From Pelagomonas calceolata (taxonomy: Eukaryota > Sar > Pelagophyceae > Pelagomonadales > Pelagomonadaceae), in NCBI GenBank assembly GCA_918797485.1, contig CAKKNE010000002.1:5546501-5610500 (forward strand): a DNA stretch of 64,000 bases, read 5' to 3'. A model generated the notes under the pieces. The model searched no databases. It was not told the DNA's origin and saw nothing but the letters and a program-made list of their open reading frames with translations. Below, one piece after another: positions 8,566-59,086 of this stretch (position 1 is its first letter; each line of letters starts with the position of its first letter). Made by a program: the position numbers and the translations under genes.

Positions 8566-8681
8566 TTTTCTCTTTCGTTCATATAATTTTGCTCCTTCTT
8601 TCTATCTTTGAAGACTCCCGGACCCGTTAACACTACAGAATTTAACCAACCTCGACGCCGTCGACGCGGCTCCGGGGGCGG

Positions 8682-11600
8682 TCACTTCCGATGCTTCTTG
8701 AGGAGCGCGACGATGGACGAGTTGCCCCATCTTTTTGCGATGGACAGAGGTGTGTCACCCCAGTTCGTCGCCCGATCGACCGCCGTGCCTTTGTCCAGCA
8801 ACAGCTGCGCCGCGTCGACGTGGCCGTTGTAGCAGGCGATGTACAGCGGCGTCGCCCCGTTCTTTTGCGCCCGGTCTACCTCCGCGCCTTTTTCTAGCAA
8901 GAGCTGCGCCGCGTCGACGTGACCGTTCTGGCAGGCGATGTACAGCGGCGTCACACCGTTCTCCTTCGCCCGATCGACCTCCGCGCCTTTGTCCAGCAGC
9001 AGCCGCGCCGCGTCGATGTGGCCGTGTTCGCACGCGACAAATAGGGGTGTCAGGCCGTCCTGTTTAGCTTGGTCGACCTCGGCGCCTCCGTCCAGGAGTT
9101 GCGTCATCGCGTCGACATCGCCGATCTTGGCAGCGGCATGCAACGGGTAGAGGTGGTCATCGATCAACGTGACGACTTCTTCATGATCATTATACTTTGC
9201 TGCGTCCAGCGCAGTCCCCCCGTCCTCGTCCGCCCGGTCGACCTCCGCGCCTTTTTCCAGCAACAGCCGCGCCGCGTCGACGTGGCCCTTCTCGCAGGCG
9301 ATGTACAGCGGCGTCCGACCGTCCTTCTTCGGCGGATCGACCGCCGCGCCTCTCTCCAGCAACAGCCGTGCCGCGTCGACGTGGCCCTCAGTACAGGCGA
9401 TGAACAGCGGCGTCCGACCGTCCTCTGCCGCCCGGTCGACCTCCGCGCCGTTATCCAGCAGCAGCCGCACCGCGTCGACGCGGCCTTTTTCACAAGCGGC
9501 GTACAGCGGCGTCCGGCCTTCCTTGTCCGCCCGATTAGCGTCCGCGCCTTTATCTAACAACAGTTGCGCCGCATCGACGTGGCCCTTCTGGCAGGCGACG
9601 TACAGCGCCGTCAGACCTTCCCGCCATCCGTCTGACCACACTCGTGACCCCGCTCGATCAACCTCCGCGCCTTTATCTAACAAGAGCCGCGCCGCCTCGA
9701 CGTGGCCGTTCTGGCAGGCGACGCACAGCGGCGTCGTGCCGTTCTGATTCGCCCGATTGACCGCCGCGCCGTCGTCCAGCAGCTGCCGCGCCGCTTCGAC
9801 GTGGCCGTTCCGGCACGCGGCGTACAGCGGCGTCCAGCCGTCCTTATCCGCCCGATCGACCTCCGCGCCTTCATCTAACAACAGCCGCACCGCGTCGACG
9901 CGGCCGTTCTCGCAGGCGATGAAAAGCGGCGTACGGCCGTTGTCCTGCGCCCGGTTGACCTCCGCGCCTTTTTCCAGCAACAGCCGCGCCGCGTCGACGC
10001 GGCCGTTCTGGCAGGCGTCGTACAGGACCGTACATCCCTTTTCGTTCGCCCAATTCGGATCAGCGCCGCGCTGGAGACATAACCGCATCACATCGAGGTT
10101 CCGGTTTCGGCAAGCAATAAGAAGCGGAGTTGCGCCATCCAAGCACAATTCGACAGCTGCTCCGTGGTCTAGAAACAGTGTCGCGACGTCGAGGTGTCCG
10201 CAAGCACATGCAATCCCAAACGGCGACCACTCAGTCTCACGCCGCTTATCGACCGCGGCACCAGCATCGAGCAGCAAGCGCGCGACGCCGATGTGCCCTT
10301 TCAAACTCACAACGAACAGTGGCGTATAGCCATCACTATCTTCCTGATCGACGCAAGCGCCCTCCTGAAGAAGAGCGCTTATTGCGGCGACGTCACCCTT
10401 GTAGCACGCAAGCGTCAGTGGCGTCGTGCCGCTCTCGATGCGCAGCTCCCCCCACCGCTTCCCGAAAGCCACAAAGAGCCCGCTCGTATCGCCCCTGACA
10501 GCCAACGCCCTAACATCATCATCAAAAGCAACCACCCGCAGCGCCTCACCGCCCTTGCTTGCGTCCCACACCCGCAAAGTCTTGTCGCGCGACCCGCTCA
10601 CGAGCCGCGTCTCGCCCGTCGCCGGGTCTGCGAAGGCCGTCAGCGCGTTCACAGTGTTCGTGTGTCCCTCGAGCACGAACAGTAGCGCGCCGCCCGCGGC
10701 CAAGTCCCAGATGCGCACCTTGTTGTCTATTGATCCGCTCGCGAGGCGAAGGCCACCCGCCGCCGGGTCTTCGAAAACGGTCAACGCCCACACCGATTCC
10801 GTGTGCCCCTCGAGCACGACCAGTGCCTCTCCGCCCGCAACCGGGTCATATATGCGCACCTTCCCATCACCACGTGCACCACAAGCGAGCCGCGGCGCGC
10901 CCGTCGCCGGGTCTTTGAAGACCGCCAGCGCGCGCACCTCCGAGCCAAGGTCGATCACGACCAGCGCTTCACCACCAGCGACCGGGTCGTATATGCGCAG
11001 ATCACCACTTTTCTTTCGCCAATTGCCCGTCCCGCACACAAGCCGCAGCGCGCCCGTCGTCGGGTCCGCGAAGAACGCCAAAGCAAACTCAATGCCGACG
11101 GCGATCACGACCAGTGCCTCGCCGCCCGCGACCGGGTCGAAGACACGCACCTTCTCATCTCCAGAGCCACAAGCGAGCCGCGGCGCGCCCGTCGCCGGAT
11201 CCACAAAGAACGCCAGCGCATTCACCTCCGAGCCAACGTCAATCACGAGCAGCACACCACCAGTCTCCGCGTCCCACACGCGAACCGTCTTATCCCAGGA
11301 CCCAGTCGCAACCAGCAGCGCGCCCGTCGCCGGATCTACAAAGTTTACCAGGGCCCTCACCTCCTTAGAGTGCCCCTCGGGCTCCGCCTCGATCGCCGCG
11401 CCGCCCGCCGCCGGGTTCCAGACTCGGACGTTATCACCGTCTGCGCTCACGAGCCGCGGCTCGCCCGTCGCCGGGTCCGTGAAAGTTGTCAAAGAGGCCA
11501 CTAACCATTTGTGTCCCTCGAGCACGACCAGCGCCTCACCGCTCGCGACCGGGTCGAAGACGCGCACTTTCTGATCTTTTGACCCGCTCGCGAGTCGCAG

Positions 11601-14600
11601 CGCGCCCGTCGCCAGGTCTTTAAATGCGACCAGTGCACCCACTGGCGAACCCACGTCGAGCACGAGCAGCGTGTCGCCGCCAGAAACAGCGTCGAAGATG
11701 CGCACCTTCCCATCCATAGAGCCGCACACGAGTCTCGGCGCGCTCGTCGCTGGTTCCTTGAAGACCGCCAGTGCAAACACATGAGAACCAACATCTAGCA
11801 CGAGCAGCGCGTCGCCGCCCGCGACCGGGTCGAAGACAAGCACCATGTCTCCCGACGCGCATGCAAGCCGCGGCGCGCCCGTCGCCGGGTCTTTGAAGAC
11901 TTCTAGTTTGCTAGTAGTAGTACCCACGTCGATCACAAGCAAAGCTTCGCCGCCAGCGACCGGGTCGAAGACACGCACCTTTCCGTCCCGTGACCCACTA
12001 ACAAGGTAAGGAGTGCCCGTCGCTGGATTCGCGAAGACCGCCAGCGCATACACCCAAGAGCCCACCTCGAGCAAAAGCATTGCCTCGCCACCGGCGACCG
12101 GGTCGAAGATGCGCACTTCGCCATTATCACAATCTGCAACCCGCGGGTGCATGCTGGTACCACAAGCAACCCGCGGCTCGCCCGTCGCCGGATCTTTGAA
12201 GGCCGCCAGCGCATTCACCTGAGAGTACCGTTCGGCGGCGCCGTTAATCACCACCAGCGCCGCACCACCCGCGACCGGGTCATAGATGCGCACTTTGCCG
12301 TCATGAGAACCACAAGCAACCCGCGGCTCGCCCGTCGCCGGATCCACGAACGTCGCCAAGCAGTCAGCACGAGTCTCGATCCGACACCGCTCCGCCCCAC
12401 CCGCCGCCGTCAGACCCATCGGTCGCGCGGCCGAGAGGGGCAGCTTGCTTGCGACGCGTCTCAAATCCTCGGCCAGGCGTCCCGCGGCCGACTTAGCATC
12501 GGCGCGCGGCACAAGCCGCTGCCACAACTGCTCTACGAGAGGCAACCCCCGTGATAGCAGGTTCCGCGACAACACCAATGCATCGGACAACAAAAATGTG
12601 TCCTGTTCCTTCAGAGCACGCAAGTCGGCCACGAAGGAAGCGATGTCGCCGGCGCTCCGCTTCCGCACGTACGACAGGCTACACGCCACAGCGACGGCCT
12701 CGCCCTCAGCAGAAGACCGCTTCATGTGAAACAAGCACCAACGCAACGCATAAGCATCCGATGCCACACCACCCTCGCCCTCCACAAATGAAGCCAGCAC
12801 TTCATCCGCGGCCGCGTCGCTCGAGTGCGACTCGGTATCAAGTACCCCAGCACGAACCGCCTGAGCACACGCCCGCGCCAGCCGCCGATGCGCCGCGTCC
12901 CGCGCGACGAAGAAATCGTCCTCAGAAGAGCGCTTGTCGAACGGCGCCTCGCCCGTCAGCCAGTCCGTCACTGTCTTATGTAAAACACCAATGACGTCGC
13001 CCTCGCGTAGTGGGAACAGCAGGGACAAGCCATCACAGACCTTCTTGCACCACGCCCGATCCCAGCCCAACGCACTACTCGCCGCGTCGACGGTGAGCGG
13101 CTCGGCCGCGGCACACACAAGTTCCACCAGCGGCAGCGCGTCGCGCCACGCAGCATCATCAACGAATACGCGTCGAAAGTTTTCCTCGTAGATCTCGTCG
13201 AGGCCCGCCGGCAGCGCGCCGACGCTCGCAAAGTCGATCTTGCCAGTCGTTGCCTCGAGCTGGTCCGCGATGAGCCGCGCGTAGAGCATGAGCCCGTCGG
13301 CTTTCCGCTCGAGTGCACTCACTGCGGCGTCGAGCGCCGACGAGTTGAGGCGCTCTGAAATGAATGCCTCGAGCGCCTCCGCCCCGACACTCGTGTCCTT
13401 GCACATGTCAGGTAACGCCGCACGGATCACTTCATACTGATCGTGCGCGATGTGCTTGGCGTCCGCAATGCTCTTCAAATTCAGTTGATTCTCCGCGATG
13501 TGCGTCTGGCTGTCGTCGAGGGGGACGCGGACGTTCAAATTAAAGTCGCGGTAGCCCATGGGCGTGGGGTGGGCGAACTTGTTCTTCACTTGGGCTATCT
13601 CCAGGCCGACGCTTGCGAGCCGATTCAGGACGTCGAGCAGTTCATCGGGAGTCTCACACAAGATAGTAGCTCGAGAGAGATCTTTGAGATAACGAGCGTC
13701 GCCGCCGTAGTCATTGGCGAGCTTTTGCAGCGACCGCGGACGACCCTTTACGCCTGGACTCTGTATATCATCGTGGAGCTTTCTCAAAGAATCAACCAAA
13801 ACCTTCTGAGCCACTGCGGCTTGGGCATAGAGCGTCTCGAAATCGCCCTCGTCCTGCTTGAGTCCTGGGTTTCGTCGCTCCCTGTAGGCCTCTAGCTTGT
13901 CGAGTCCGCTCACGCCTCGCATGGCTTCCGCGTACGTGGCCTTGGCTCGACGGAGCGGATCTTCGAGTGCCGCAAAACCTCCGAGGCGACCGGCGAGCTC
14001 CGGGAACTTCGCCTCGACCTCGTGTCGCAGCGACTCCATCGTCACCTCGAGCTCGATGTGCTCCTTTGCGAGTTCAGTTAGGTACGCCCTCACGTCCTGC
14101 CGATTCCGTCCTTCGTCGACACGGAGCTCCGTCGGCGTGTAGCCCTTCAGTGTAGCCTTAATTTGCGCCTCGTCGCGGCTTGTCGCTACGATTTTGATCC
14201 AGGGCGGTAGCGTCTTGAGCTCGGTCGCGAGCAGCGACAGCACGGGCTTCAGCGCGTCGCGCGGCAGCTCGTCGAGCGCGTCTATGACTAATACGAGGGC
14301 GTCGTCCGGGCCGCGCGGCGCCTTGACGCTTCGCAACGGCTTCGCTACTAAAGCCTCGAAGAGCTCGTCGACCTTGTCGGTCTCGACGCTAGCGCCCTCC
14401 CTCCGCGCGTCTCCGAAGCCCTCCACCGTTGCACACAGCATGCCCGCCAGAGACCGCAGCAGCACCGCTGGCGCGGACCGCGCCGGCTCGGTGTGCTTGC
14501 AAAAGTGCCACGCGGCCGCGTTTTCCTTGTCGAGCAGCCGCGCGAGCAATTCAGCCGCTGCCACGCTCTTGCCCGTGCCGCCGCCGCCGATCAACCAGAA

Positions 14601-15041
14601 GAGCTTTGCGCTATCAACGTCAGTCCGCCAGCGGAGCACCGCCTCGAAGACCCACTCGCGCGTGCCGGGCAGGTGCTGCCCGCGCTTCTCCGCAATTATG
14701 GCCGAAAAGTCCAGCGCTTCCGCCACGTCGGAGCGGTCGACGCCGTGGAGCTTTTCGTAGAGCGCCTCGGAGATCGCGGCCTTGGCCTCGGACTCCTTCC
14801 AGCACCGCACTGCCTCGTCCCTGGAGATCTTGGCTTCCGCGAACTTCTCCTCCCACGCGGGCTGCCACTTGGCGCCCGCCAGCTCCTTCGCCTCGGCAAG
14901 CGAGACCTCCTCCGGGAGAGATGATATACCACCGCCCATCTGTAAGGGCTGCCTCAATTCACCTGGCGGCTGCCTGTCCTTCTTCGCTGGAGTGAAGGCT
15001 CGGGCCGGGACCCGCACTGCGACTCTCGCCGTCGCCGCCAA
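8682..15041 (-). CDS. Giant NACHT STAND ATPase with RelA/SpoT-like insert, WD propellers and ankyrin repeats
   Basis: 2119 residues in one uninterrupted ORF. Order: N-terminal helical region (36-110); NACHT ATPase with P-loop GGGGTGKS (152-159), Walker B LVIDALDELP (251-260) and sensor IVATSRD (284-290); an insertion whose residues 405-540 resemble RelA/SpoT nucleotidyltransferases; the rest of the NACHT helical/winged-helix part (PAGLDEIYEENF near 611-622, then LHKTVTDWL); 14 WD-type blades, each with a (D)PATG...DPVAGG spacer, about two 7-blade propellers; 18 ankyrin repeats to the C-terminus. Start 15041 is the first ATG. The ATG at 14939 gives MGGGISS, a classical N-myristoylation sequence, and may be the real start. 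The architecture is that of a signal-sensing STAND/NLR-type protein; ligand and output are unknown. Confidence 0.85.
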   Translation of the reverse strand: MAATARVAVRVPARAFTPAKKDRQPPGELRQPLQMGGGISSLPEEVSLAEAKELAGAKWQPAWEEKFAEAKISRDEAVRCWKESEAKAAISEALYEKLHGVDRSDVAEALDFSAIIAEKRGQHLPGTREWVFEAVLRWRTDVDSAKLFWLIGGGGTGKSVAAAELLARLLDKENAAAWHFCKHTEPARSAPAVLLRSLAGMLCATVEGFGDARREGASVETDKVDELFEALVAKPLRSVKAPRGPDDALVLVIDALDELPRDALKPVLSLLATELKTLPPWIKIVATSRDEAQIKATLKGYTPTELRVDEGRNRQDVRAYLTELAKEHIELEVTMESLRHEVEAKFPELAGRLGGFAALEDPLRRAKATYAEAMRGVSGLDKLEAYRERRNPGLKQDEGDFETLYAQAAVAQKVLVDSLRKLHDDIQSPGVKGRPRSLQKLANDYGGDARYLKDLSRATILCETPDELLDVLNRLASVGLEIAQVKNKFAHPTPMGYRDFNLNVRVPLDDSQTHIAENQLNLKSIADAKHIAHDQYEVIRAALPDMCKDTSVGAEALEAFISERLNSSALDAAVSALERKADGLMLYARLIADQLEATTGKIDFASVGALPAGLDEIYEENFRRVFVDDAAWRDALPLVELVCAAAEPLTVDAASSALGWDRAWCKKVCDGLSLLFPLREGDVIGVLHKTVTDWLTGEAPFDKRSSEDDFFVARDAAHRRLARACAQAVRAGVLDTESHSSDAAADEVLASFVEGEGGVASDAYALRWCLFHMKRSSAEGEAVAVACSLSYVRKRSAGDIASFVADLRALKEQDTFLLSDALVLSRNLLSRGLPLVEQLWQRLVPRADAKSAAGRLAEDLRRVASKLPLSAARPMGLTAAGGAERCRIETRADCLATFVDPATGEPRVACGSHDGKVRIYDPVAGGAALVVINGAAERYSQVNALAAFKDPATGEPRVACGTSMHPRVADCDNGEVRIFDPVAGGEAMLLLEVGSWVYALAVFANPATGTPYLVSGSRDGKVRVFDPVAGGEALLVIDVGTTTSKLEVFKDPATGAPRLACASGDMVLVFDPVAGGDALLVLDVGSHVFALAVFKEPATSAPRLVCGSMDGKVRIFDAVSGGDTLLVLDVGSPVGALVAFKDLATGALRLASGSKDQKVRVFDPVASGEALVVLEGHKWLVASLTTFTDPATGEPRLVSADGDNVRVWNPAAGGAAIEAEPEGHSKEVRALVNFVDPATGALLVATGSWDKTVRVWDAETGGVLLVIDVGSEVNALAFFVDPATGAPRLACGSGDEKVRVFDPVAGGEALVVIAVGIEFALAFFADPTTGALRLVCGTGNWRKKSGDLRIYDPVAGGEALVVIDLGSEVRALAVFKDPATGAPRLACGARGDGKVRIYDPVAGGEALVVLEGHTESVWALTVFEDPAAGGLRLASGSIDNKVRIWDLAAGGALLFVLEGHTNTVNALTAFADPATGETRLVSGSRDKTLRVWDASKGGEALRVVAFDDDVRALAVRGDTSGLFVAFGKRWGELRIESGTTPLTLACYKGDVAAISALLQEGACVDQEDSDGYTPLFVVSLKGHIGVARLLLDAGAAVDKRRETEWSPFGIACACGHLDVATLFLDHGAAVELCLDGATPLLIACRNRNLDVMRLCLQRGADPNWANEKGCTVLYDACQNGRVDAARLLLEKGAEVNRAQDNGRTPLFIACENGRVDAVRLLLDEGAEVDRADKDGWTPLYAACRNGHVEAARQLLDDGAAVNRANQNGTTPLCVACQNGHVEAARLLLDKGAEVDRAGSRVWSDGWREGLTALYVACQKGHVDAAQLLLDKGADANRADKEGRTPLYAACEKGRVDAVRLLLDNGAEVDRAAEDGRTPLFIACTEGHVDAARLLLERGAAVDPPKKDGRTPLYIACEKGHVDAARLLLEKGAEVDRADEDGGTALDAAKYNDHEEVVTLIDDHLYPLHAAAKIGDVDAMTQLLDGGAEVDQAKQDGLTPLFVACEHGHIDAARLLLDKGAEVDRAKENGVTPLYIACQNGHVDAAQLLLEKGAEVDRAQKNGATPLYIACYNGHVDAAQLLLDKGTAVDRATNWGDTPLSIAKRWGNSSIVALLKKHRK
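8685..10460 (-). repeat. Eighteen tandem 99-bp ankyrin units
   Basis: Coding tandem repeat inside the NACHT gene. Units read TPLYIAC-x-x-GHVDAARLLL-x-KGAEVDRA with little divergence, and many are alike at the DNA level too, pointing to recent unequal exchange or conversion. One unit carries a 12-residue insertion (around 9630-9660) and two (near 9140-9210) are degenerate. Confidence 0.85.
10460..12400 (-). repeat. Fourteen WD-type blades, 44-55 residues each
   Basis: Each unit follows V-x-A-L-x-x-F-x-DPATG-x-x-RL-A-C-G-S-x-D-x-K-V-R-(I/V)-(F/Y/W)-D with DPVAGGEAL between units. Thirteen are clear and the fourteenth is degenerate, which would make two propellers. The fixed D-P-A-T-G loop is unusual for WD40 repeats and identical in most units. 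Confidence 0.8.
13422..13829 (-). other. RelA/SpoT-like segment inserted in the NACHT region
   Basis: Residues 405-540. Landmarks in family order are RPRSLQKLA (substrate-loop position), DLSRATI (aligned with D-L-x-G-x-R-I), VKNKFAHPT-x-x-GYRDFNLNV (aligned with the N-P-K-x-x-G-Y-x-S-x-H strand) and ENQLNLKSI with a following H (aligned with E-x-Q-I-R-T). It interrupts the NACHT module between DVRAYL (316-321) and ISERLN (561-566). Identification is by motif order only, and catalytic competence is unknown. Confidence 0.55.
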
Positions 15042-15263
15042 ATAAGTCCACCCTGGCTCTCGGGCAGCGCCGCTGCGCCGGGCCGGTGCGTGCGGATCGG
15101 AACCCGAACCGCAGACGCGGACCTCCTCACACGCGATGATGCGCGGCCTGGCATCAGTTCAGAGATATATGTGCATTTCTTTATGGAAACAGGGTCGGCG
15201 GGAAACGGCTGTGCGCTGCGTGCAGAACGCGCGGCTTGCCCTCGCGGGGGGGTGGTGATGAAT

Positions 15264-16883
15264 TCAGGCGTCGAGCGCCGCGCGGAGCGTCTCGGCGACG
15301 CGCGCGCACTCGTGCTCCTCGATGACGAAGGGCGGCGCCAGGATGAGGACGTTGCCGAGGCCCGGCACCGTCGACGCGTTGCGGCCGACGACGACGCCGG
15401 CGTCCGCGCAGCGCCGCACGATGGCGCCGCACGCGTCATCATCTAAAGGCGTCTTGGTGTCTCGATCCGCGACGAGCTCGACGCCGACCAAGAGGCCGCG
15501 GCCGCGCACCTCGCCCACGTGTTTGTGCGCGCCGATGGCCTCCTCCAACGTCCGCTTGAGGAACGCGCCCATCTCCGCCGCCCGCTCGACCAGCCCCTCC
15601 CGCTCCACGATCTCGATGTTGCGCAATCCCACAGCACAGGCGACGGGGTGCCCTCCATAGGTATTGATCGACCGCAAGTGCGCTAGCCGCGGCGGCAGCG
15701 TCGACGCGACCTTGCCCTGGTGCACGGCGTCCGGGCAGTCATGAAAGTTCGCGAACACCCTATCGGAAACGACGCAGGCGCCCAAGGGCTGGTACCCAGA
15801 AGTCAGGCCCTTGGCGAGCGTCACGATGTCCGGAGTTACGCCGTAGTGGTGGTGCCCGAACATCGCGCCGGTTCTTCCAAAACCGCTCACGACTTCATCC
15901 AATATGAGTAAGACGCCGTGGTCGTCGCAGACCTTGCGGACCTCCTTCAAATAATTTTCTGGAGGGACTAAGACACCTCCCCCGGACGTGATCGGCTCGC
16001 AGATGAACGCCGCGACGGTCTCGGCGCCCTCCATGCGGATCGTCTCATCTAGTGATGCGGCCAAATCGAGACCGTGCTGCGCTTCCGTCTCTCTAGAGCG
16101 GTAGGGATAAGGCGTCCCCACCTTGATGTAGCCCGGCGGCTGCGGCCCGAACCCGATCTTCCGCTCCGCCTGGCCCGTGGCCGCCATAGCACCCGCGGTG
16201 TTGCCGTGGTAGGCGCGGTGGCGCGAAATGATCTTGTACCGTAGAGGTCCCGACGGGTCCTGCTCGACGTTCGCCGCGTGGAACTGCCTCGCAATTTTGA
16301 AGGCAGCCTCGTTCGCTTCAGAGCCGGACGCCGTGAAGTAGGCGTGCGCCGGCGCGCTCCAATCCAGTAAATCGGAAATTTTCGTGGCGAGCTCGATCTG
16401 GGGGATGGAGCCGTGCGCCGGCGACAGGAAGGGGAGCTGAACCATGGCGTCGTAGGCGACCCTCGCGAGCTCTTCGCGCCCGTACCCGACGTTGACGCAC
16501 CAGAGGCCGCCCATGGCATCCAACTTCGTGGACCCATCTAAGGAGTAGAGCGTCGAGTTGTGCGCGTAGTGGACGGCCGCGGGCGGCTTGGATTCGTCAC
16601 AGGACCAGGAGCGCTGCTGCGTCATCGGGTGCCAGACGTGCTTGGCCTCCTTCCTCTGTAGATCTTCTATCAAGGACGCGAAGTTCGGCTGTTCCTCCAT
16701 TCTATGAGCGGCCGTGCTCAGTTCTCGGTTGAAGGGCGGCGGCGCGGCCGCGCCGGCGGCGGTGCTGAGCTGCGGGGCCGACGTCGGCTGGAGCGGGCCG
16801 TCGGTCGGTCGGGCGACCGTGGACTTGAGTGCGGTGCGTTGCGCAGCGGCCGCGCGGCCCCGGAGGGCGAGGGCGCGCCGCAT
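15264..16883 (-). CDS. Class III PLP-dependent omega-aminotransferase, mitochondrial leader
   Basis: 539 residues. An Arg/Ala-rich presequence (MRRALALRGRAAAAQRT) is followed by a full class III fold: KHVWHPMTQ at the start of the domain, GLWCVNVGYG, TASGSEANEAAFK (PLP phosphate loop), the AYHGNT block, EPI-TSGGGV, LILDEVVSGFGRTG with the PLP-contacting Asp, and the Schiff-base Lys in LAKGLTSGYQPLGA. The sequence around WHPMTQ and WCVNVGYG resembles taurine/beta-alanine:pyruvate aminotransferases rather than ornithine or GABA enzymes; substrate choice is inferred. It is transcribed away from the epimerase gene. Confidence 0.88.
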   Translation of the reverse strand: MRRALALRGRAAAAQRTALKSTVARPTDGPLQPTSAPQLSTAAGAAAPPPFNRELSTAAHRMEEQPNFASLIEDLQRKEAKHVWHPMTQQRSWSCDESKPPAAVHYAHNSTLYSLDGSTKLDAMGGLWCVNVGYGREELARVAYDAMVQLPFLSPAHGSIPQIELATKISDLLDWSAPAHAYFTASGSEANEAAFKIARQFHAANVEQDPSGPLRYKIISRHRAYHGNTAGAMAATGQAERKIGFGPQPPGYIKVGTPYPYRSRETEAQHGLDLAASLDETIRMEGAETVAAFICEPITSGGGVLVPPENYLKEVRKVCDDHGVLLILDEVVSGFGRTGAMFGHHHYGVTPDIVTLAKGLTSGYQPLGACVVSDRVFANFHDCPDAVHQGKVASTLPPRLAHLRSINTYGGHPVACAVGLRNIEIVEREGLVERAAEMGAFLKRTLEEAIGAHKHVGEVRGRGLLVGVELVADRDTKTPLDDDACGAIVRRCADAGVVVGRNASTVPGLGNVLILAPPFVIEEHECARVAETLRAALDA

Positions 16884-22912: not shown

Positions 22913-24337
22913 TTACTTGCTCTTGTAATATTGGTCGCAAGCCATGAGAACGCCGAGGAGTACCACCGCGGCGCAGATAGAAGATGCGTCGGGCGGGCCT
23001 GGTCGCGGCGCGCGCGCGACGTCGGCGCACTCGAGGCGGTAATGTGTGTATACCGCTTTAAATCTTGACGGCCCGACTGCGTAGCTAATCCGGTCGCCGA
23101 CGGCGAGAAACTCCCCGAGCTGCACTAAGGAAGCCTCGTGCAGTAACAAGTTGTCGCCGTCCTCGCCCCGCACGAAGTAGAACCTCCGCCTTGTGTCGCC
23201 TTGTGTCTCGGAGTAGAACCTCCTATGAACGGGATCACTTAATTCAACCTCTCTGACCTCGTATGCCACCACGACACCCGTAAATCGCTCATCGGATAAT
23301 TCTGCTACCGGGGACGGATCGCCGAGTTGCCATCTGGGTCGTTCTTTGTCCTTCTCCATGGCCTCCTTGTCGGCCCACCACTGGTCGGCGAGCCGACCTC
23401 GGGTCGGCCGGAACCATCTGAAGGCCGAGTAGAGGACATTTGGCTCCACCATCGACTCGGCGCCCTGGAACATCGCCTGCATGGTCCTGACCTGCTGGAC
23501 CCACCAGCCACCGAGCGGTTGGTTGAAGGATCTCGCATCCTTAAACATCCACTTCATATCTAGGACCCTGTGGACCCGCCAGTCGCCCAGCGGCTGGTTA
23601 AACGACGCGGCGCCAAAGAACATCGCGCGCATGTTCCAGACGTTGTGGACCCGCCAGCCGCCGATCGGGTGGTTGAACGACGAGGCGCCGCTGAACATGG
23701 ACATCATGTCCTCGACCTTGTCGACCTGCCAGTCACCCAGCGGTTGGTTGAACGCCGAGGCGCCATCAAACATGTGGCGCATATTCGTGACGTTGTGGAC
23801 CCGCCAGGCGCCGAGTGGGCGGTTAAATGCCGATTGACCTTTGAACATCTTATCCATCGTAGTTACGCTCGAGGTATCCCACGCGCTGATGTCGTCGTTG
23901 AACAGTGGTAAGTCTGCCAAAAGCACACAGGATGTGTCCTCTACGTCATCGTTTTCATTTAACGCGGTCCTGCCAAACAACCCCCGCATGTCCGTGACCT
24001 GGGAGGTGTCCCACGTCGAGATGTGCGGCAAACGTGTGTCGCCGCCGCACCAGCGCCTTATCCAGACTCGCAGCGTCTCGTTCGTGAGAGGTTCCACGAT
24101 GGGAGGCCTGGCGTGCTGCGAGTCTGGGTAACCTCCATGATGCGGCTGAACGAGAGGTTGGGCATCGGCAGCAGCCCGCGCCTGATTTTGACGGGAGGCC
24201 TCGGCGCCACAGATGTGGCCCGGGGGCATCTCGATTGTAATGGGCTCGTACGACTCGCCGTGCTCCAAAGTCATCGTCGGACGCCCATACGACGAGTAAA
24301 TCCATTCTCCTGGGGGTCGGTACCATTCTCCTCGCAT
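22913..24337 (-). CDS. DUF285/BspA-like repeat protein with C-terminal membrane anchor
   Basis: 474 residues. Seven units of about 25 residues follow the DUF285 pattern W-x-(V/T)-x-x-V-x-x-M-x-x-M-F-x-G-A-x-x-F-N-x-P-L-G (for example NVTNMRHMFDGASAFNQPLG). A separate C-terminal domain (FTGVVVAYEVREVEL, FYFVRGEDGDN) follows, and a single hydrophobic segment (AAVVLLGVLMA) sits five to ten residues from the end, the layout of a tail-anchored protein. There is no N-terminal signal peptide. DUF285 repeats are surface or adhesion repeats in bacteria and are expanded in some protists; function here is unknown. Confidence 0.8.
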   Translation of the reverse strand: MRGEWYRPPGEWIYSSYGRPTMTLEHGESYEPITIEMPPGHICGAEASRQNQARAAADAQPLVQPHHGGYPDSQHARPPIVEPLTNETLRVWIRRWCGGDTRLPHISTWDTSQVTDMRGLFGRTALNENDDVEDTSCVLLADLPLFNDDISAWDTSSVTTMDKMFKGQSAFNRPLGAWRVHNVTNMRHMFDGASAFNQPLGDWQVDKVEDMMSMFSGASSFNHPIGGWRVHNVWNMRAMFFGAASFNQPLGDWRVHRVLDMKWMFKDARSFNQPLGGWWVQQVRTMQAMFQGAESMVEPNVLYSAFRWFRPTRGRLADQWWADKEAMEKDKERPRWQLGDPSPVAELSDERFTGVVVAYEVREVELSDPVHRRFYSETQGDTRRRFYFVRGEDGDNLLLHEASLVQLGEFLAVGDRISYAVGPSRFKAVYTHYRLECADVARAPRPGPPDASSICAAVVLLGVLMACDQYYKSK

Positions 24338-27580: not shown

Positions 27581-28026
27581 ATGCGCGCCACGACGCTCGT
27601 TTTGCTGGTCGCTGGTGCTGCTGCGCTCCAGCCCACTCTGCGCGTGCACGCGGCGGCGCGGTCCCGTACGAGTGGATGACCAGTGCAGAAAACAACCAAA
27701 GGATTCGACGACCTGACGGCGAAACGACTCTAATGCTTGTAACGCTTGACCGCGACCCGCGCGCCGGACGTCGACGGCGCCGCCGACGGGAGGGATCGTC
27801 CAGCCTCCACGCCATCGAGCGGACGCGTCGGTGTGGCGAAAAGGTCGACGCACACACAGGCATCGTCGCCCGGGCCGAGCCAGAGCGAGAGGACGGCATG
27901 GTCGACATCAGACCCCAGCCGCGGGAACTGGACAGCGACGCGGAGCTCGGTCTGACGGTGCTCGCGCCCGGGATCGCGCTGTTCGCGCTCATCGCGGTCG
28001 TGGCCCAGTTCGCGCACCCGGTATAG
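27581..28026 (+). CDS. Small plastid-targeted single-TM protein, two exons
   Basis: Proposed exons 27581-27671 and 27860-28026 (85 residues). Exon 1 encodes a signal peptide (MRATTLVLLVAGAAA) followed by LQPTLRVHAAAR, the signal-plus-transit layout of stramenopile plastid proteins. Exon 2 encodes REDGMVDIRPQPRELDSDAE and a C-terminal hydrophobic helix (LTVLAPGIALFALIAVVAQF). Reading through instead hits a TGA at 27677. The intron end CACACAG and an internal core shared with other introners support splicing; a donor at 27666 would also keep frame (83 residues). The size and tail recall small thylakoid membrane subunits, but no specific subunit was recognised. Confidence 0.55.
27672..27859 (+). 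mobile_element. Probable older introner forming an intron
   Basis: 188 bp from GTGGAT to CACACACAG. It contains CTCCACGCCATCGAG, matching the core of the introner at 51796 (CCTCACGCCATCGACG), and a left end AGTGCAGAAAACAACC resembling the shared TIR. Target duplication is not clear. The donor could instead be 27666. Confidence 0.5.
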
Positions 28027-28403
28027 GCCTAGTTTATAATTGGATCATACGAACAGCGCTGACACCGGATCATCTCCAGATTTAGAAGGTGCGGGGCCGC
28101 TCGCGTGCGATGCGAGATACGATGCGGTGACGCACTCGGGGTCCGTGCTAGAGTGACTAGTTCAATAAGCGACTCTCTCTCACGAGTCGCAACGTGCGCG
28201 ACGCGCGGTGCGACGTGCGCGCTACTCCTAGTAACATAAGTCTTAGTGAGCCAGACGAAAACAGCGCGGCCGCGCGCCGCCGCCGCGGGAGGACCAGGTC
28301 GGCCCCACACCCAGAGAGATGGTGTGGCGCGTCATAGGCGGTCCCCCGCGCGCGGCGAGCCCCGGGGCGTGCGGTCCCCGGGGCGGCCACCAAGTGCCTT
28401 CGT
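28027..28403. other. Convergent 3' region with hairpin and SECIS
   Basis: 377 bp between a plus-strand and a minus-strand gene end. It holds a hairpin with perfect 7-bp arms, GCGACTC and GAGTCGC (28169-28190), of unknown role, and the selenoprotein's 3' UTR with its SECIS. No ORF. Confidence 0.65.
28283..28350 (-). promoter_or_regulatory. SECIS element in the selenoprotein 3' UTR
   Basis: On the minus strand, 54 nt after the stop. Helix I: CGCGGGGGACC (28350-28340) pairs with GGTCCTCCCGCG (28295-28284), with one bulge and one G-U. An internal loop GCCT/CT follows. Quartet: ATGA (28335-28332) faces CGAC (28301-28298), giving the tandem G-A/A-G core. Helix II: GCGCCACACC with GGTGTGGGGC, one mismatch. 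The apical loop carries CC on its 5' side if the top two pairs open, matching the CC variant of eukaryotic SECIS. This is drawn by eye; an energy-based fold was not run. Confidence 0.8.
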
Positions 28404-29063
28404 CTAGAGCTCGTCCTTCGCCGCCGCGACTTTGGCCAGCTTCGCGAGCAGCTTCCGCTGGGCCTTCATCTTCTTCTGCGTCGCGTCGGACAGCAGATCG
28501 TCCAACCGCGCCGCCTCGGCGTCGCGCGCCGCGGCGTCGCCGCGCCACGCGTCCAAATACTGGGACTCCTCCTCGTCGCAACCCTTCTTGGTTACGGCGT
28601 CGCAGACCTTCCTAGAGGTTGTGACGGCGTTGATCATGCGCTGCGGGATCTTGAACTCGTCGCAGATCTTCTGGGTCGTGATCCGCTCGACGGGCGCGCC
28701 GCCGGGGCCCGTGTCCGCGTTGTAGTACCGCAGCGTCGGCCAGCCGCCCGCGCCGGGGTTCTGCGGCGTCCCGTCCCGACTCTGCGTGACGCGGCCCTCC
28801 CGCAAATTCACGTCCCCGAAGACGACGCCCGCGTCGTCCTTGTAATGCTCCACGGCCGCACGCCATCCCGGAGCCTGCTTGACTCATCAGCCTCAGCCCT
28901 CCGACGCGATGAACCGCACCATCGCCGTCTTGCCGGCGGCCAGCGCTTCTTCGACGAAGTCGTCGAAGTTGGCAGCCGTGAGAGGGGTGGTGCCCTCGGC
29001 TAGCGCGGAGCCAGCCTCGGCTGCGCCTATGCAGGCCAGGGCCAAGAGGATGCGGCGCGCCAT
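28404..29063 (-). CDS. ER thioredoxin/PDI-like selenoprotein with UGUU active site and KDEL tail
   Basis: 219 residues counting three selenocysteines. The ORF runs without other stops from ATG 29063 to TAG 28404-28406, except for in-frame TGA codons at 28893-28895, 28887-28889 and 28884-28886. Read as Sec, they give MVRFIASEG-U57-G-U59-U60-VKQAPGWRAAVEHY. This aligns with PDI APWCGHCK-x-L-AP-x-W, so U57 and U60 take the places of the two active-site cysteines and U59 the place of His. A cleavable signal peptide (MARRILLALACIGAAEA) and a C-terminal KDEL place it in the ER lumen. The region after the thioredoxin fold has four Cys and a Lys-rich coiled tail. A SECIS lies 54 nt downstream. PDI-like selenoproteins are known in algae; this exact motif I do not recall. 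Confidence 0.88.
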
Positions 29064-29503
29064 CTCTGCACGCGTTTCTCTGCACGCGTTTTCCGGCGAA
29101 ACGGCGAGGACACGACTCGCGCCAGCGACGCGATCGGTCCCGGACGTTCGCTGGCTCTCTCCTGCGCCGCAACGAGAGCCAATTCGAGCCAAAATGGCCT
29201 ATGTGCGCTGTGATATACCCGTGCGATAGACCAAAATGCATGGGTCTTTTTGAAGGCGTGCTACGTGGCCTCAGGCCTCAGGAAAGCGGCGCAGGAGAGC
29301 CTTCGCCTGCCGAAACTGCCGCTCCGCGGATCAGAGTCCCAGAGTTTAATTCGCGCGCTCTCCGCCTGCGCGTCGTCTTACGAGCCGATTGACAACCGCG
29401 CGAGCCTGTTGACAGTAGCCAAGTACCGCAGCGGCAACTTGCTGGTCGAAAAGAGGGCTGCAAGCACGTAAAAAAGCAGCACAGTGAAAGGCCAGAGATC
29501 CAC
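29064..29503. other. Divergent intergenic region, selenoprotein / CaaX gene
   Basis: 440 bp, somewhat richer in A/T near 29160-29240. No palindrome copy and no gene seen. Confidence 0.55.
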
Positions 29504-57817: not shown

Positions 57818-58936
57818 TTATCTGTCAACATCGTCCGCGACCGCGAGCAGATCCAAACGGACCTCGTCCACGTAGTCCGCGTCGAGGCCCGCGCGCTCGG
57901 CCGCCGCGCGCGCGGCGCCGGCGGTGCTCGTGAAGAGGCCGCCCTCGGCGCGGCCGCCGGCGCGGGCCGCGAGGTCTCGAAATGTTTCGGCCGCGCCGGG
58001 CCCCGCGGCGCGGAGCCGCGCGCAGCCGCCCGGCCCCGCCGTCGCGGCGTCGTCGGCGTCTTCATCCACAGAAGTCCAGAAGAGGCCCGGCTCCGCGCTT
58101 TCGCCAGACGTTGCAACCACGCGCAGGCCGTCGCGCCGCGTCGCGTCGCGCGCGTGCTCCTCCCCGTCGAAGAATACCGATGAGAAGGGCCCCTCCGGCT
58201 CCGGACCAAGCGCCGCGTCGACGACGACGCCGGCGCTCCCCGCGCCGGGGCCTCTCACAAAACGCGCCCACGTCTCGAGGTCGACGGGCGCGCCGCAGCG
58301 GCCGCGGAGCGGCCGCGCCGCGAGAGCCACGATACTGGAAATATCCTCCCGCCACGGCGCCACGACGTCGCTCTCCAACCTCAACTCGCGCAGGGCCACA
58401 GCCGCGTCCAGAGTTTTGGAGGCGCGCGCGAGGTCCGTCTCGGCTTCGTCCGAGACGCGCATCATACAAACGCGAGGCCGGCGGCCGCACTCTTCTGATG
58501 CGTACGTTAGTAAAGAGTGCGCGACGCCGGCGTAGCCCCCCGCGTCCGTTGTAACGACGAACCCCTGCGCGCGGTCGCAGCGCTCCAGCGTCCCTCTCAG
58601 ATGATCGAGCGTCGCCTCCCACCAGTCGCCGCCCAGGACACCTTCTCTTGTTCCCGCGCGGAAGTGGCTGAATCCACTCAACGCCTCGGCGCCGGCCCAG
58701 AGCGGCAGCGGCACGTGTGCTGGATCTACAATACCCGCCGCCACGAGCTCGTCCTCATCCTCCACCGCTCGCAGCGGCTGGCGCTTGGCGTCTATTGTCA
58801 TTGTCCGCCGGCGGCCCTTCGGTTCCGTGAAGGGGTCCCTTTGCACGTCCTCGGCCCAGAGTTGTTCGAGTGCCTGGATGCCGCCGGGGCCGATCTCTAA
58901 TGTGACGATCTCGCCGCCGGCCATGTGGGCGGCCAT
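57818..58936 (-). CDS. Misato (DML1) homologue, tubulin-related
   Basis: 372 residues from MAAHMAGGEIVTLEIG; starts at 58924 (MAGGEIV) and 59023 are also in frame. N-terminal EIVTLEIGPGGIQALEQLW, followed by a WADFS-like region (PLWAGAEALSGFSHFRAGT), and ERCDRAQGFVVTTDAGGYAGVAHSLL matching the Misato segment II/tubulin-like motif. Misato acts in mitochondrial distribution and mitotic spindle in animals and fungi. The C-terminal half is Ala/Gly/Arg-rich and weakly conserved. Confidence 0.72.
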   Translation of the reverse strand: MAAHMAGGEIVTLEIGPGGIQALEQLWAEDVQRDPFTEPKGRRRTMTIDAKRQPLRAVEDEDELVAAGIVDPAHVPLPLWAGAEALSGFSHFRAGTREGVLGGDWWEATLDHLRGTLERCDRAQGFVVTTDAGGYAGVAHSLLTYASEECGRRPRVCMMRVSDEAETDLARASKTLDAAVALRELRLESDVVAPWREDISSIVALAARPLRGRCGAPVDLETWARFVRGPGAGSAGVVVDAALGPEPEGPFSSVFFDGEEHARDATRRDGLRVVATSGESAEPGLFWTSVDEDADDAATAGPGGCARLRAAGPGAAETFRDLAARAGGRAEGGLFTSTAGAARAAAERAGLDADYVDEVRLDLLAVADDVDR

Positions 58937-59086
58937 GTTGCGTACAGCCTCGCCCGAATGTGATGCTTGCAAGGGCTGCTGCACCAAAGTCGTCCAGCGG
59001 TCGCAGGACGGCCCGCGCCACAAATGCTATTGCTCGCGCGATGTTTTACGCGAACGCAGCGATTTTTTATGTCGACACGATTGCGA

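Follow-up and report, generated by a model that had tools for sequence, protein, structure and literature searches.

PDI carries a KDEL end, and SelL contains two Sec residues, not adjacent to each other, in a UxxU motif. Among algae, a PDI of Emiliania huxleyi is said to have been described by Obata and Shiraiwa in 2005 as a PDI-like selenoprotein. The closest described system is PDI_e, an algal selenoprotein with three neighbouring Sec residues in a GUGUU motif (Jiang et al. 2020, PMC7539508), and according to that paper no earlier selenoprotein had two Sec residues in a row. In its text, the PDI_e genes number 12 and come from 10 algae, for the most part haptophytes and SAR, and are backed by EST alignments and SECIS predictions; the GUGUU motif has been lost in the Fistulifera solaris homologues, Plantae have non-Sec homologues only, and Aureococcus anophagefferens has 82 selenoprotein genes (PMC7539508). 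A search of the open-access literature, outside which most subscription journals lie, returned no further paper with the GUGUU motif or the family name, no other selenoprotein of the PDI_e kind for consecutive Sec, and nothing that joined the Pelagomonas calceolata genome with a selenoprotein. Since the motif and the family name appear in this literature in PMC7539508 alone, PDI_e seems to have been little studied.

Here we describe a gene in a window of Pelagomonas calceolata DNA (the window being the whole stretch of 64,000 nucleotides that was analysed). Its coding sequence, 219 codons followed by TAG (28405..29063, minus strand), is a single open frame with no introns. The only in-frame stops from ATG to TAG (29063-28405, minus strand) are three TGAs, at codons 57, 59 and 60. 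By alignment, U57 (28893..28895, minus strand) corresponds to the first (N-terminal) Cys of the C-G-H-C motif of PDI, U59 (28887..28889, minus strand) to its His and U60 (28884..28886, minus strand) to its second Cys; the codons of U59 and U60 adjoin, forming two tandem TGAs. The residues across the TGAs read S-E-G-U-G-U-U-V-K-Q-A-P-G-W, of which E-G-U-G-U-U are residues 55-60. The protein has a hydrophobic, signal-like N-terminus (read by eye from the sequence), a thioredoxin domain at approximately residues 27-125, a C-terminal part and a KDEL end. Cys residues are found at position 11, inside the signal-like stretch, and at positions 134, 154 and 162 of the C-terminal part. The sequence-only reading of this DNA had placed three in-frame TGAs at the CGHC site of a PDI with the frame open on either side, and the TGA coordinates and the phmmer alignment both agree with this; its core proposal is supported, namely a PDI-like selenoprotein in which the two catalytic positions and one of those between them hold Sec, with a KDEL end and a SECIS-like element in the 3′UTR. 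In all likelihood the gene is real.

The E-G-U-G-U-U of the window protein is identical to the published PDI_e motif, GUGUU (PMC7539508), and we file the gene under PDI_e for this reason. Like PDI_e as described in that paper, it combines three neighbouring Sec residues in G-U-G-U-U with a PDI/thioredoxin-like protein and a SECIS-like element downstream, and it is thus a probable member of the family, matched on the motif, the thioredoxin-like domain and the description only. The sequence-only reading could name no precedent for three Sec in four residues; PDI_e with its GUGUU has in fact been in print since 2020 (PMC7539508). The algal PDI-like selenoproteins PDI_a to PDI_d have one Sec only, against three in the window protein, and the UxxU forms of SELENOW (amphioxus, Ostreococcus lucimarinus) resemble it in having Sec at either end of a CxxC-type motif, yet belong to another family and have two Sec with no third between them (PMC7539508, as far as its text describes them). 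If the source species lies outside the ten algae with PDI_e, the gene adds one more case to the family, and a compact one to test.

The Pfam Thioredoxin model matched residues 27-93 with an E value of 6.8e-5 and 23.3 bits, 0.2 bits below the cut-off of 23.5. A PDB search with E up to 0.01 returned six sequences, half of them PDI and half sulfhydryl oxidase 1 (QSOX1); the highest-ranking, PDI chain 8eoj, had an E value of 1.3e-7 for the whole chain, which is the sum of two domains, and a best single-domain i-E of 0.0028. The three PDI entries, 8eoj, 4ekz and 6i7s, we take to be human P4HB. In the phmmer alignment the TGA segment faces W-C-G-H-C-K-A-L-A-P of the PDI chain, and G-G-W-P-T-L of the window protein faces its cis-Pro segment, G-Y-P-T. 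The two proteins have in common a thioredoxin a-type domain with active-site and cis-Pro segments, and a signal-like N-terminus. PDI, too, ends in KDEL. Unlike these PDI chains, the window protein has U-G-U-U in place of C-G-H-C, and one thioredoxin domain only, followed by the C-terminal part with three Cys. Single-sequence structure prediction was poor (mean pLDDT 47, pTM 0.34) and was set aside.

Searches with the protein gave 14 pattern matches in viral_contigs and 34 in genome_contigs, none of them confirmed; a Sec homologue could escape one of the six search patterns, because Sec was back-translated in it as Cys codons. A degenerate pattern of the TGA motif matched at least 120 loci in viral_contigs, and tblastn over the 120 loci listed gave a best E value of 0.56. 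Four of the listed loci have the motif with at least 40 codons open before it and at least 90 after it (TGA read through), and neither tblastn match came from these four.

The codon usage of the frame is coding-like on both sides of the TGAs. We trained the score on 15 window ORFs with Pfam support, chosen out of 25 neighbouring ORFs that were scanned against Pfam; seven of the remainder had no Pfam match, and three with matches (24343, 37763 and 57818) were excluded from training. The log-odds of the Sec frame were +14.1 bits for the 45 codons before the TGAs and +12.4 bits for the 45 after them, which ranked this cluster first among the 163 TGA clusters with both flanks open (1219 TGAs, six frames), with the runner-up at 4.6. 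An earlier training on two ORFs gave 69.2 for the frame of the gene and at most 6.0 for the other five. Stop codons in the 15 Pfam-supported ORFs were TAA in eight, TGA in five and TAG in two. Since TGA ends five of the 15, the genetic code appears to be one without TGA reassignment, with the reservation that introns may contain some of these ORF ends.

Downstream of the gene, the 3′UTR contains a SECIS-like hairpin (28274..28360, minus strand), characterized by folding, a geometry scan and shuffles. It consists of a long lower stem, an internal loop, an ATGA (28335-28332) opposite GA, an upper stem (nine pairs, one mismatch) and a 9-nt apical loop. A SECIS-like fold with an ATGA/GA quartet had been proposed 54 nt past the stop codon; the fold and the quartet stand, while the distance has to be corrected, as the ATGA begins at 28335, 69 nt past the stop codon. 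The stretch 28270-28360 has an MFE of -56.7 kcal/mol, whereas its shuffles average -45.9 (z -3.5; none of 200 shuffles was equally stable), and, although this stretch too was chosen around the site, its z-score is independent of our custom SECIS scoring. The custom geometry scan covered 273 ATGA sites on the two strands of the window, let 43 through on geometry and put the hairpin first, a rank that leans towards this site because the scoring was written after the site had been seen. Its score was -58.7, and none of 187,314 ATGA sites in 1614 shuffled windows (one strand each) reached it, the best scoring -57.3. The second-best geometry in the window, at 15439 on the minus strand (-37.6), lies just inside the start of the ORF 14954-15442 and is probably due to chance.

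The apical part of the hairpin departs from the consensus. The apical loop, AUCUCUCUG, contains no unpaired AA, and the sole CC, 9 nt away from the quartet, takes part in pairing in the MFE structure; freeing it costs about 6.3 kcal/mol, changing the upper stem from -16.9 to -10.6. A published SECIS filter, as given in PMC2375036, looks for AA or CC 10-13 nt after the quartet; the hairpin has no AA, and its paired CC, at 9 nt, sits just short of that range. We therefore call the element SECIS-like. The stability thresholds of the same source are -12.6 kcal/mol for the whole element and -3.7 for the upper stem (PMC2375036), and the hairpin is well beyond them, at -56.7 for the whole and at -16.9, or -10.6 with the CC freed, for the upper stem. 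Apical loops of eukaryotic SECIS elements mostly have two or three unpaired adenines (PMC11227280, in its text on these loops), and, since the wording is "mostly", we treat a loop without AA as a departure that does not exclude the element. With a relaxed filter (NTGA, and AA or CC at 9-13 nt) the hairpin was the sole candidate in the 1.2 kb that follow the stop codon and the first of 47 in the window; by itself this is weak and unspecific evidence, because a site at 57930 on the plus strand is nearly level with it (-49.2 against -49.7). An Rfam scan of 28000-29300 returned no SECIS match at E values up to 10; matches to mir-4864 and mir-218 in the same interval were both far below the gathering scores, look like chance and were set aside.

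The departure from the apical consensus speaks for a reading in which the selenoprotein gene is real and its decoding inefficient, with translation often stopping at one of the three UGAs and a large share of the product cut short. This reading agrees, too, with the text of PMC7539508 that we draw on, which holds no protein-chemistry demonstration of tandem UGA decoding. Against this reading, the 159 codons 3′ of the TGAs are coding-like (+57.9 bits with the two-ORF training) and hold the PDI-like cis-Pro segment, which places the full-length product under selection. We consider inefficient decoding unlikely, though with a substantial residual chance.

Two explanations would remove Sec from the product altogether, and both are very improbable. 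In the first, the TGAs belong to a short intron, whose removal leaves an ordinary protein free of Sec. There are 34 GT..AG spans of 30-200 nt covering all three TGAs, and 16 of them leave an open frame (shortest 42 and 45 nt). However, none of these 16 has a GTRAG-like donor; all 16 delete the segment aligned with C-G-H-C (by construction), and 14 of the 15 listed also delete much of the preceding V-R-F-I-A-S. Coding-like codon usage, moreover, reaches right up to the TGAs, and the identical motif comes with EST alignments in several algae (PMC7539508, according to its text); we rejected the intron. In the second, the locus is a pseudogene, or contains sequencing errors, of a Cys-containing PDI homologue in which TGC or TGT became TGA. 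TGA is indeed one base away from the Cys codons, and the window is a single sequence; such changes, however, would have had to place three TGAs precisely within the redox motif while leaving the 219 codons otherwise free of stops, to reproduce the motif of a published family (PMC7539508, as described there), and to coincide with a strong SECIS-like element in the correct place.

That the true gene is instead the ORF 28612-29241 (minus strand), which runs for 209 stop-free codons in a different frame of that strand, has almost no chance of being correct and was rejected on codon usage, with a score of -70.9 (two-ORF training) and a third-position GC of 0.57 against 0.89 for the Sec frame and 0.84 for the WD40 gene. 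This ORF shares its DNA in part with the selenoprotein gene, and a simple gene finder might pick it instead.

We favour, with a probability of roughly 0.9, the view that the gene is nuclear, belongs to a eukaryotic alga and encodes a selenoprotein of the PDI_e type, its UGAs being decoded via the SECIS-like element in the 3′UTR. By the known eukaryotic pathway, SBP2 would bind the ATGA/GA quartet and recruit eEFSec with Sec-tRNA, and the ribosome would read the three UGAs, two of them in tandem, as Sec before stopping at UAG. For models of Sec insertion, the decoding of tandem UGAs is a demanding case, since neighbouring codons each have to accept a Sec-tRNA. The predicted signal peptide would direct the protein to the ER, and KDEL would keep it there.

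Within the thioredoxin fold, U57 and U60 take, as the alignment shows, the place of the catalytic Cys pair of C-G-H-C. They would be expected to form a diselenide, by analogy with SelL, for which one has been reported (Shchedrina et al. 2007, as cited in PMC2397514). SelL is of another thioredoxin-like family than the window protein. The UxxU diselenide may exchange with substrate disulfides or be charged by peroxide. The protein would then function as an ER oxidoreductase with a UxxU diselenide and a third Sec replacing His; it may be a reductase, an isomerase or a peroxidase. For a Grx octapeptide, E0 is -180 mV with the disulfide and -381 mV in the diselenide analogue (as cited in PMC10096412), and by analogy a very strongly reducing centre in the window protein would be plausible chemistry. 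Aquatic organisms may possess systems that reduce diselenides (PMC2397514, in its text on the subject). U59, in the place of His, and Cys 134, 154 and 162 might serve as further partners. That the middle Sec is a working part of a three-selenium centre with alternative diselenides (U57-U60, U59-U60 or U57-U59) seems doubtful to us. In the ER, a redox motif with three Sec would take selenium chemistry to an extreme.

The surroundings of the gene fit a picoalga: the neighbouring ORFs have long open frames, with about 64% G+C, and, by Pfam, eukaryotic domains (WDR3-like WD40, Got1, SRR1, bromodomain and RXYLT1-like). Repeats and tRNAs in the window gave no clue to the species. Three other ORFs of the window, all on the minus strand, drew our attention. 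The ORF at 8682-15041 has 2119 codons, with repeats mostly 99 nt apart at 8669-10147 and about 138 nt apart, or multiples of this, at 10531-12375. The ORF at 57818-59023 (401 codons) has a weak match, below the cut-off, to the Tubulin/FtsZ GTPase domain (E 7.3e-6), and may encode a tubulin-like protein that has diverged, or else one piece of a gene with introns. Finally, 22913-24337 encodes a DUF285 protein (Pfam E 4.1e-61) with a 75-nt repeat, a member, in a eukaryotic setting, of a family named after Mycoplasma.
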